The notes beneath the pieces were generated by a model. It was not told where the DNA came from, made no database searches, and worked only from the letters and a program-made list of their open reading frames with translations. A stretch of DNA of 40,229 nucleotides from Sideroxydans sp. (GTDB lineage Bacteria > Pseudomonadota > Gammaproteobacteria > Burkholderiales > Gallionellaceae), in the NCBI GenBank assembly GCA_011620315.1, contig WOZO01000157.1, positions 1 to 40,229 of the forward strand, read 5' to 3'. Below, piece after piece: positions 2,072-18,118 of this stretch. Positions within the stretch are counted from its first letter, which is position 1, and every line of letters starts with the position of its first letter. Position numbers and translations under genes: made by a program.

Positions 2072-2118
2072 GCCCGTTCGTCCTGAGTAGGCGCGTAGCG
2101 CCGTATCGAAGGATGGGC
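2072..2118 (+). repeat. Palindromic repeat family 1, copy A
   Basis: Imperfect palindrome with arms GCCCGTTCGTCCTGAGTAG and CGTATCGAAGGATGGGC around a GCGCGTAGCGC centre. Related copies in this window are at 2434-2473 (inverted), 18013-18054 and 18073-18118 (inverted). This copy and the one at 2434 bracket the GIY-YIG gene in opposite orientation. Confidence 0.8.
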
Positions 2119-2131
2119 GGGCGGGTTGATC

Positions 2132-2422
2132 TCATTTGCGGAAGTTCTTCTTCTTCGCTAGAAGTGATACTGCCGACCAGTCACTTCGCATCATGGCTTC
2201 TTTTTTCTTGCGACTCCAGCCCTTGATCTGTAATTCAGCAGCCAAGGCTTCGTCGCGTGTCGTGCATTCCTGTGACCATGCAAGCTCAACAGGCAGACGG
2301 GTGGAAGTATATCCGCCGATGGCTCCGGTGTGATGTTCACCGATTCGCTTCTCCAGGTCATCAGTATGGCCGGTGTAATAGCTGCCGTCGGCACATCGTA
2401 GAAGATAGACCCAGAAAGTCAT
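2132..2422 (-). CDS. Small GIY-YIG nuclease-domain protein (UPF0213 type)
   Basis: A 96-residue stand-alone GIY-YIG domain. The N-terminus VYLLRCADGSYYTGHTDDL carries the two motif tyrosine/glycine strands, followed by KRIGEH with the conserved arginine and an alpha-helical basic C-terminus (KKKEAMM, AKKKNFRK). The fold is that of single-strand-cleaving GIY-YIG nucleases (UvrC N-domain, homing endonucleases); small single-domain members are widespread but poorly characterised. It is preceded and followed by inverted copies of palindrome family 1 at 2072-2118 and 2434-2473, leaving almost no other intergenic sequence. This suggests that gene and repeats form one unit. Confidence 0.9.
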   Translation of the reverse strand: MTFWVYLLRCADGSYYTGHTDDLEKRIGEHHTGAIGGYTSTRLPVELAWSQECTTRDEALAAELQIKGWSRKKKEAMMRSDWSAVSLLAKKKNFRK

Positions 2423-2433
2423 TCTGACGGCTG

Positions 2434-2473
2434 GCCTTCGATACGCGCCTTCGTCGCTACTCAGGACGAACGG
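2434..2473 (-). repeat. Palindromic repeat family 1, copy B (inverted)
   Basis: GCCTTCGATACGCGCCTTCG, then TCGCTACTCAGGACGAACGG, is the reverse-complement version of copy A at 2072-2118. It sits just upstream of the GIY-YIG start codon and 12 bases from the stop codon of the Mth938-domain gene. Confidence 0.8.
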
Positions 2474-7369: not shown

Positions 7370-8815
7370 ATGAAATACATCTCCACCCGCGGCAATGCGC
7401 CCGCGAAGACATTCACCGAGATTCTGCTGGGCGGCCTCGCGCCGGACGGCGGCCTGTATCTGCCGGAAGAATATCCTCAGGTGACGCGCGCTGAACTGGA
7501 CGCATGGCGCAAGCTGTCGTACGCCGATCTCGCGTATGCGGTGCTATCGAAGTTCGCCACCGACATCCCCGCGGACGACCTGAAGGCCATCGTCAGCAAG
7601 ACCTACACCGCCGAGGTGTATTGCAACGGCCGTGCCGACAGCAATGCGGCGGACATCACGCCGCTGCGCAAGGTGAGCGACGGCGTGTACATCATCGAAC
7701 TGTCCAACGGTCCGACGCTGGCGTTCAAGGACATGGCGATGCAGTTGCTGGGCAACCTATTCGAGTATGCGCTGGCGAAGCAGAACGAGGAACTGAACAT
7801 CCTCGGCGCGACCTCGGGCGACACCGGCTCCGCGGCCGAATACGCGATGCGCGGCAAGCGCGGCATCCGCGTGTTCATGCTGTCGCCGAACGGCAAGATG
7901 AGTGCCTTCCAGCGTGCGCAGATGTATTCGCTGCAGGACCCGAATATCTACAACATCGCCATCAACGGCATGTTCGACGATGCGCAGGATATGGTGAAGG
8001 CGGTGTCCAACGATCACGCCTACAAGGCTGCGCACAAGATCGGTACGGTCAACTCCATCAACTGGGGACGCGTGTCGGCACAGATCGTGTATTACTTCAA
8101 GGGCTACTTCGCGGCGACCAAGAACAACGACGAGCAGGTCGCGTTCTCGGTGCCGTCCGGTAACTTCGGCAACATCTGCGCAGGACACATCGCACGCATG
8201 ATGGGCCTGCCCATCGGTCAGCTCATCCTGGCGACCAACGAGAACGACGTGCTGGACGAGTTTTTCCGCACCGGCATCTACCGTCCGCGCGGCACGGCGC
8301 ATACCTACGAGACCAGCAGCCCGTCCATGGACATATCCAAAGCGTCCAACTTCGAGCGCTTCGTGTTCGATCTGGTTGGTCGCGACGGTGCCAAGGTGCG
8401 CGAGTTCTGGAGCAAGGTGGATGCGGGGGGCGCGCCCGATGCGCCGGCCTTCGACATCAAGCACACACCGTACTGGAATGCGCTGCCCAAATTCCATTTC
8501 TCATCCGGCAAGAGTACGCATCAGGACCGCCTGAAGACTATCCGCGAGATTTGGGAAGAATACGGCGTGATGATCGACACGCACACTGCCGACGGCCTCA
8601 AGGTTGGTCTGGAGCAGCGTCGTCCCAGCCTGCCGCTGATCTGTCTGGAGACCGCCTTGCCCGCCAAGTTCGCCGAGACCATCCGGGAAGCGCTGGGTCG
8701 TGAGCCCGAGCGTCCGGAATCCATGATCGGCATCGAAAACTTGCCGCAACGCGTGGAAGTGATGGATGCGGATGTGGTGAAGCTGAAGGCTTTCATCAGC
8801 GCGAACGTGCAGTAA
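7370..8815 (+). CDS. thrC: Threonine synthase
   Basis: A 481-residue PLP-dependent threonine synthase of the long (fungal/proteobacterial) type, which converts O-phosphohomoserine to L-threonine. The N-terminus MKYISTRGNAPAKTFTEILL is characteristic. The Schiff-base lysine is K120 in LSNGPTLAFKDMA, and LGATSGDTGSAAEYAMRGK plus VPSGNFGNI form the phosphate/PLP pocket. A GGAAG ribosome site precedes the ATG. High-GC codon use resumes here after the AT-rich pair upstream, and the gene pairs functionally with hom at 4230. The thrB kinase for the intermediate step is not in the window. Confidence 0.96.
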   Translation: MKYISTRGNAPAKTFTEILLGGLAPDGGLYLPEEYPQVTRAELDAWRKLSYADLAYAVLSKFATDIPADDLKAIVSKTYTAEVYCNGRADSNAADITPLRKVSDGVYIIELSNGPTLAFKDMAMQLLGNLFEYALAKQNEELNILGATSGDTGSAAEYAMRGKRGIRVFMLSPNGKMSAFQRAQMYSLQDPNIYNIAINGMFDDAQDMVKAVSNDHAYKAAHKIGTVNSINWGRVSAQIVYYFKGYFAATKNNDEQVAFSVPSGNFGNICAGHIARMMGLPIGQLILATNENDVLDEFFRTGIYRPRGTAHTYETSSPSMDISKASNFERFVFDLVGRDGAKVREFWSKVDAGGAPDAPAFDIKHTPYWNALPKFHFSSGKSTHQDRLKTIREIWEEYGVMIDTHTADGLKVGLEQRRPSLPLICLETALPAKFAETIREALGREPERPESMIGIENLPQRVEVMDADVVKLKAFISANVQ

Positions 8816-8825
8816 TAGTTTTGTT

Positions 8826-8851
8826 GTCATTCCCGCTTTCGCGGGAATGAC
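8826..8851 (+). repeat. Palindromic repeat family 2 (ATTCCCGC type)
   Basis: A perfect hairpin: GTCATTCCCGC, loop TTTC, GCGGGAATGAC, 10 bases after the thrC stop. Related copies are at 9191-9227, 9280-9306 and 23614-23639; variants with GG in place of CG are at 15488, 15586 and 27400. It resembles the short ATTCCC/GGGAAT palindromes abundant in many betaproteobacteria. It may also attenuate transcription after thrC, though no T run follows. Confidence 0.85.
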
Positions 8852-8887: not shown

Positions 8888-9178
8888 ATGTCCAAACAGC
8901 CTTGCGTCTATATCCTCTCCAGCCAATGTAACGGCACGTTGTATATCGGTGTGACCAGCGATCTGGTGAAGCGGGTTTGGGAACACAAGTATGATCTGAC
9001 CGATAGCTTCACCAAGAAATACGGCATCCATACTCCGGTTTATTTTGAACAATGCGGTGACATGGTCGCCGCTATCGCTCGCGAGAAACAGCTGAAAAAA
9101 TGGAATCGCGTCTGGAAGGTTGAATTGATCGAATCAATGAATCCGGAATGGAATGATCTGTGGGAAGAGATTCAATGA
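8888..9178 (+). CDS. Small GIY-YIG nuclease-domain protein, second subtype
   Basis: A 96-residue stand-alone GIY-YIG domain: VYILSSQCNGTLYIGVTSDL holds the motif strands, then KRVWEHK with the conserved arginine, YFEQ, and AIAREKQLKKWNR before a tryptophan-rich acidic C-terminus. It is clearly a different subtype from the GIY-YIG protein at 2132-2422. Nuclease activity is expected from the family but unproven for such single-domain members. Family 2 palindromes stand on both sides (8826-8851 upstream, 9191-9227 and 9280-9306 downstream), just as family 1 brackets the other gene. Confidence 0.9.
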   Translation: MSKQPCVYILSSQCNGTLYIGVTSDLVKRVWEHKYDLTDSFTKKYGIHTPVYFEQCGDMVAAIAREKQLKKWNRVWKVELIESMNPEWNDLWEEIQ

Positions 9179-9190
9179 ACTTCACTATTG

Positions 9191-9227
9191 AGCGCTGTCA
9201 TTCCCGCGTACGCGGGAATCCAGCGCT
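9191..9227 (+). repeat. Palindromic repeat family 2, copy downstream of GIY-YIG gene
   Basis: The core ATTCCCGCGTACGCGGGAAT (9200-9219) is a perfect palindrome. It is embedded in a longer imperfect inverted repeat with outer arms AGCGCTG and CAGCGCT. It begins 12 bases after the GIY-YIG stop codon. Confidence 0.85.
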
Positions 9228-9279
9228 GTTAAAGAACATGCTGTTGGTTTTGTCGGCTGCGCCGGTGTGGTTGTATTAC

Positions 9280-9306
9280 TGGATTCCCGCTTGCGCGGTA
9301 ATGACG
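9280..9306 (-). repeat. Palindromic repeat family 2, degenerate copy
   Basis: CTGGATTCCCGCTTGCGCGG followed by TAATGACGG has one mismatch in the stem and the opposite orientation to the copy at 9191. It lies immediately before the start of the AEC permease gene. Confidence 0.75.
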
Positions 9307-18012: not shown

Positions 18013-18118
18013 ACCGTTCGTGGTGAGTAGGCCGTAGGCCGTATCGAACCATCCGTCGCATCAGCGGCGGGGCGTCCTTCGATACACCGCACATTGCGCG
18101 GCACTCAGGACGAACGGG
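18013..18118. repeat. Inverted pair of palindrome family 1 in the clpB leader
   Basis: ACCGTTCGTGGTGAGTAGGC... at 18013-18054 and the opposite-strand copy GTCCTTCGATACACCGC...CTCAGGACGAACGGG at 18074-18118 face each other ~20 bases apart. Both copies are the same family as 2072-2118 and 2434-2473. The pair lies between the sigma-32 promoter and the clpB ribosome site, so the whole unit is transcribed as leader RNA and can pair into a long imperfect hairpin. Confidence 0.8.

Follow-up and report, generated by a model that had tools for sequence, protein, structure and literature searches.

Site-specific GIY-YIG nucleases that act on single strands and are paired with genomic repeats, termed Ssn, have reportedly been described by the Veyrier group in Nature Communications in 2025, and the Ssn of Neisseria is said to modulate natural transformation through its repeats. 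A second point of comparison is provided by the RAYT (TnpA_REP) genes, defined by a Y1/HUH enzyme, and the REPINs that go with them (REPtrons). For CGTC-tagged REPs, including dRS3, no dedicated transposase was found according to Di Nocera et al. (PMC3733652), where the question of what moves repeats that lack an accompanying RAYT gene is also left open. Here, we analyzed a window of 40,229 nucleotides (the whole stretch of DNA presented above) from Sideroxydans sp., in which a small GIY-YIG gene lies between two inverted repeat copies (Table 1). We consider it fairly likely that the nuclease and its flanking, matched repeats form a unit of the RAYT/REPIN kind that is built on a GIY-YIG nuclease.

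Table 1 Positions in the window, strands and basis of the features discussed
Feature	Position	Strand	Basis
Downstream type A copy of the repeat, CCGTTCG facing outward, folding well as a hairpin	2074..2112	+	inverted-repeat search, motif, folding
Stand-alone GIY-YIG nuclease gene, 96 aa	2132..2422, stop codon included	-	PF01541; 12-row alignment
Upstream type A copy of the repeat, CCGTTCG facing outward, folding weakly on its own	2435..2473	-	inverted-repeat search, motif, folding
Gene-free dimer, two inverted type A copies, CCGTTCG outward	18014..18117, 104 bp	.	sequence, motif, presence/absence

The focal protein matched the GIY-YIG family PF01541 (E 1.1e-19, 71 bits, cut-off 22.6), which was its sole Pfam match at E ≤ 0.001, a Y1/HUH transposase domain being absent at this threshold. 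The active site of GIY-YIG enzymes comprises a tyrosine, a glycine, an arginine, and a glutamate, and Y6, G18, R26, H30, and E63 were all invariant in the alignment of the focal nuclease with its homologues; with the domain present and the active-site residues conserved, the protein belongs to the GIY-YIG superfamily. No match was obtained in NCBIfam (E ≤ 0.001) or PADLOC (E ≤ 0.01), and the plasmid and phage searches returned 7 and 23 records, respectively, with less than 60% identity in every one.

The two arms around the gene are inverted, 39 nt long, 82% complementary, and separated by 322 nt, and they came first when inverted pairs were listed across the whole window (among the matches listed, the best 25 of 31). 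Their pattern can be written as CCGTTCG-nnn-TGAG...TCGAA-nnn. The motif TTCGTCCTGAGTAG matched both arms exactly, and with up to two mismatches it had four matches in the window vs. 0.16 expected from shuffles. Genome-wide, 21 copies of CCGTTCGNNNTGAG and eight of TTCGTCCTGAG were counted, compared with two and none, respectively, when the patterns were read backwards. Folded as single-stranded DNA, the plus-strand copy forms a hairpin (z -2.92, with 1 of 200 shuffles as good) and the minus-strand copy a poor one (z -0.50, 56 of 200 shuffles as good), and the stem of one of the two is decayed. A previous reading of the sequence alone had placed the same palindrome in inverted orientation on either side of the gene; the inverted copies are real, but the word palindrome suits one of them better than the other. 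Among 155 distinct simple hairpins, the three variable stem pairs were complementary in 146, 146, and 152 cases, vs. means of 54, 80, and 121 in shuffles that ignore ancestry, and the repeat stem covaries. TGAG and TCGA lie within the search pattern, so their presence is no evidence of conservation. The three bases after CCGTTCG varied in these hairpins (CCC 39, TCC 35, GCC 24, TGG 18, TGC 15, GGC 15) and were stem-paired, and an unpaired GTAG or CGTC tag was absent. Longer repeat copies possess an extra inner stem between GAGTA and GTATCGA (34 seen), and positions 1900-2600 of the window had no Rfam match at the gathering score.

The genome (2.9 Mb, 233 contigs) holds six GIY-YIG matches. One of these genes lies at 8888-9178 of the window (PF01541, E 1.8e-11), with a product 31% identical to the focal protein over 77 aa, and is flanked by palindromes with ATTCCCGC...GCGGGAAT at 8824-8851, 9195-9222, and 9278-9305, which resemble the dRS3/CGTC-1 type. 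A third gene (L003; G000:C205, near 7407-7625) has pairs of inverted TACCGGC...GCCGGTA palindromes on either side, and a fourth (L002) is without such repeats.

A profile built from 12 homologues yielded 80 loci in named genomes (the best 80 of 578 relatives), the hosts being, by name, many sphingomonads as well as beta- and gammaproteobacteria. Bracketing was examined within 300 bp on either side of the gene in 78 of these loci, after L092 and L100 were dropped for their short flanks. An inverted repeat with a score of at least 20 surrounded the gene in 54 of the 78, leaving 24 without one, vs. 1 of 1349 controls placed elsewhere in these loci at equal spacing; at a score of at least 24, the counts were 45 of 78 and 0 of 1349. 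The bracketing could in principle be a coincidence in which common intergenic REP-like repeats happen to flank the gene, as the number of copies in the Sideroxydans genome might allow. The control placements refute chance bracketing, and together with the matching of types described below and a sister GIY-YIG subtype from the same order (motif within 300 bp in 1 of 19 genes, none of the 19 bracketed) they leave this explanation with a negligible probability. The sister subtype also shows that bracketing is not a general trait of small GIY-YIG genes. When paralogues were added and calls below 85 bits excluded, 141 genes minus 20 duplicates gave 121 distinct ones, with an outward-facing repeat copy at most 90 bp upstream in 83, at most 120 bp downstream in 100, and on both sides in 74. 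The motif, with one mismatch permitted, occurred within 250 bp of the gene in 114 of the 121 relatives and was missing there in seven. In L017, L023, and L024, the nuclease ORF extends into the downstream repeat, so that the repeat encodes a C-terminal peptide.

Three repeat types were distinguished around these genes, i.e., type A (CCGTTCG...TGAG), type B (CCGCTCA and near prefixes...TGAG), and type C (CCGTTCG...CGAG). Among the 80 genes that could be typed on both sides, 35 were A-A, 17 B-B, and 14 C-C, mixtures of A, B, and C did not occur, and in the remaining 14 one copy or both had another sequence. Placed on a nuclease tree of 121 rows and 91 columns with many open forks, the type labels required 12 changes, vs. 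a mean of 36.2 for shuffled labels, and none of 200 shuffles was as low (19 of the 121 genes carry no A, B, or C label and fall outside this count). The labels cluster partly by ancestry, which label shuffling leaves in, and genomes of mixed type are a better control: eight genomes hold nucleases of more than one type, and for 21 of 23 genes in them the closest relative in a different genome shared the type, as it did for 93 of all 102 labelled genes. In one genome (G238), the nucleases have flanks of types B, B, A, and C. The suggestion, made from the sequence alone, that small GIY-YIG proteins are tied to specific palindromic repeats is supported by these comparisons, in which nuclease subtype and repeat family do correlate, and a nuclease and its repeat are very probably a matched pair.

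Repeat numbers were compared with nuclease presence in 45 genomes, the source of 46 of the 80 loci, six weak nuclease matches (75-99 bits) being left out. Type A repeats had a median of 52 copies (4-211) in the 35 genomes that carry an A nuclease and of 4.5 (1-55) in the 10 without, and type B repeats a median of 35 (2-92) in 11 genomes with a B nuclease and of 2 (0-8) in the other 34. The exceptions were G239, where an A nuclease is present with just four A repeats, G231, whose B nuclease has GCGCTCA flanks that the B pattern misses, and G227 and G229, with 43 and 55 A repeats but no typed A nuclease (in G229 the contig ends within the flank of the gene). Across 200 genomes from the own order, the profile set 12 (best match at least 134 bits) apart from the others (at most 83.1 bits), and at least 10 A repeats were present in 10 of these 12 and in 20 of the 188 nuclease-negative genomes, which held up to 97 copies. 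Repeats can therefore be abundant without a nuclease of the focal subtype, and the repeat-rich negative genomes may have lost the nuclease or may have a different mover. The expectation of many repeats with the nuclease and few without it thus holds for the medians of both types, but not for these 20 genomes, nor for the two nuclease-positive ones with fewer than 10 repeats. Copies of CCGTTCGNNNTGAG number 97 in G049, 81 in G169, and 59 in G038, three genomes of the order in which the focal subtype had no match.

Alternatively, a Y1 transposase of the RAYT/IS200 type might move the repeats as ordinary REPs, with the GIY-YIG gene as a passenger caught between two of them. Y1_Tnp was found in 118 of the 200 genomes, including 17 of the 20 that are repeat-rich and nuclease-negative, and at least 10 repeats occurred in 26 of the 118 genomes with Y1_Tnp vs. 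4 of the 82 without it (odds ratio 5.5). This link is weaker than that of the nuclease to the same number of repeats (odds ratio 42); moreover, the exact motif CCGYTCRNNNYGAG was near none of 18 Y1 genes picked from 12 of these genomes (regions of 1.5-2.1 kb), four of the 18 were bracketed by inverted repeats (score at least 20) of other sequence, and a passenger would leave the matching of nuclease and repeat types unexplained. A Y1 transposase is thus not supported as the linked enzyme, and although its weaker correlation persists, we regard the passenger explanation as improbable. The four bracketed Y1 genes are those of L215, L216, L217, and L221, and their inverted repeats have a core of GGGGTCAG or GGGGACAG.

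The focal cassette, i.e., the nuclease gene with its two repeats, lies between a MoxR-like gene (PF07726) and a DUF498 gene (PF04430), and was absent from this site in all 14 relatives that were aligned. These 14 loci comprised all ten from the same genus and 4 of 19 others, the latter four selected because they have the same neighbour gene. The spacing between the aligned MoxR-like and DUF498 parts was 1-292 bp in the relatives vs. 426-476 bp in the window, and in the locus with the longest spacing (L135) the gap looks by eye like another ORF. The gene-free dimer, in which the stems of the two copies are unlike (TGG/ACCA and TCC/AGGA), was missing, as judged from BLAST coordinates and joined flanks, in four of the five relatives with both flanks aligned (G071, G270, G303, and G313), and the fifth (G305) was ambiguous. 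At other sites, four genomes of the genus held eight relatives that match the dimer over its full length (79-87%) and stop at its boundaries, except for one that continues further on one side. The protein sequences of three paralogues in G224 are 79-90% alike, and the DNA of these genes past the repeats is 50-57% alike, as in unrelated pairs. Of 24 repeats in G233, 16 were arranged as outward pairs spaced by 67-81 bp, and another outward pair, spaced by 343 bp, encloses a nuclease (both among the matches listed). No target-site duplication was seen in the insertion comparisons. With good confidence, we take the cassette to be a unit that inserts. A GIY-YIG domain of the subtype is also encoded in frame within a type I restriction-subunit-like protein (L027:562-3258, with ResIII at 152-275, GIY-YIG at 313-384, and EcoEI_R_C at 744-899); L025 has the same arrangement, with repeat-derived sequence near the domain, and the arrangement looks like a frame-keeping insertion.

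In the mechanism that we propose, a small nuclease belonging to a separate GIY-YIG subtype and inverted copies of its matched repeat would form one compact unit. The nuclease would cut the repeat as single-stranded DNA, as the Ssn enzymes are said to do, and could recognize it by the CCGTTCG and TGAG...TCGAA segments of the hairpin. Most speculatively, the unit might be freed or exposed when two inverted copies are cut while DNA is replicated or taken up, host ligation or recombination might then place copies of it elsewhere, and the cassette and the short dimers might in this way spread jointly, like RAYT genes and REPINs. In the simplest such scheme, two inverted hairpins would each receive a single-strand cut and the host would complete the move by ligation or recombination; we know of no GIY-YIG enzyme that joins DNA ends. 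That the nuclease itself mobilizes the unit is a reading we hold tentatively, at somewhat less than even confidence. The pair might instead serve as a DNA-uptake or genome-stability device, in which the nuclease cuts incoming or exposed single-stranded DNA at the repeats, the repeats are kept for this purpose, and their spread has another cause. The role reported for the Ssn of Neisseria in transformation would suit such a device, and high repeat numbers and type matching are compatible with it, but the insertions look more like self-serving spread, with gene-free dimers inserted at exact ends, the cassette sharing those ends, and another cassette located within a gene for a restriction subunit, and we consider such a device rather unlikely. 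If the nuclease does mobilize the unit, this would be a route of gene movement that is, as far as we know, not yet described. More tentatively still, there may be a class of mobile units in Proteobacteria in which a stand-alone GIY-YIG single-strand nuclease, and not an HUH, DDE, serine, or tyrosine enzyme, spreads its cassette and REPIN-like gene-free dimers, with nuclease clades and repeat types evolving in step and several pairs per genome. A widespread repeat family can now be assigned a matching enzyme, and even without mobilization, the nuclease-repeat pairing predicts the targets of many small nucleases.

Compared with solved sequences, the subtype profile is nearest to the UPF0213 GIY-YIG proteins 1zg2 and 1ywl (E 8.7e-23 and 1.5e-17), from which it differs in that the match stops at profile position 79 of 92, and the unbracketed sister subtype of the same genomes scores lower on this profile than the focal one. 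GIY-YIG enzymes tied to repeats were not found in the open-licence literature among the matches listed, and neither were an inserting unit, matched types within a genome, or REPIN-like dimers of this kind. The pairing of a nuclease with a repeat is nevertheless probably known in kind from the Ssn family, given which the sequence-only statement that no established system exists was probably too strong. The focal nuclease is itself probably of the Ssn type: like the Ssn enzymes as reported, it is small and stand-alone, has a matching genomic repeat in many copies (see the medians of types A and B above), and has many homologues with different targets. Its repeat family is a different one, and the inserting cassette, the REPIN-like dimers, and several matched types per genome are features presented here that are not known to us for Ssn. 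The CGTC-tagged REPs, as characterized in PMC3733652, are likewise short palindromes that often form inverted dimers of unlike copies, but the focal repeats have no conserved CGTC tag. With RAYT/REPIN systems, the locus shares inverted palindromic repeats flanking a gene, gene-free dimers with the same ends, and type matching, and differs in having a GIY-YIG instead of a Y1/HUH enzyme and no GTAG tag. It is not a RAYT, since the defining Y1/HUH enzyme is absent; the comparison with RAYT and REP elements drawn from the sequence alone holds for the architecture, with outward inverted ends, gene-free dimers sharing these ends, and insertion at sites that are empty in relatives.
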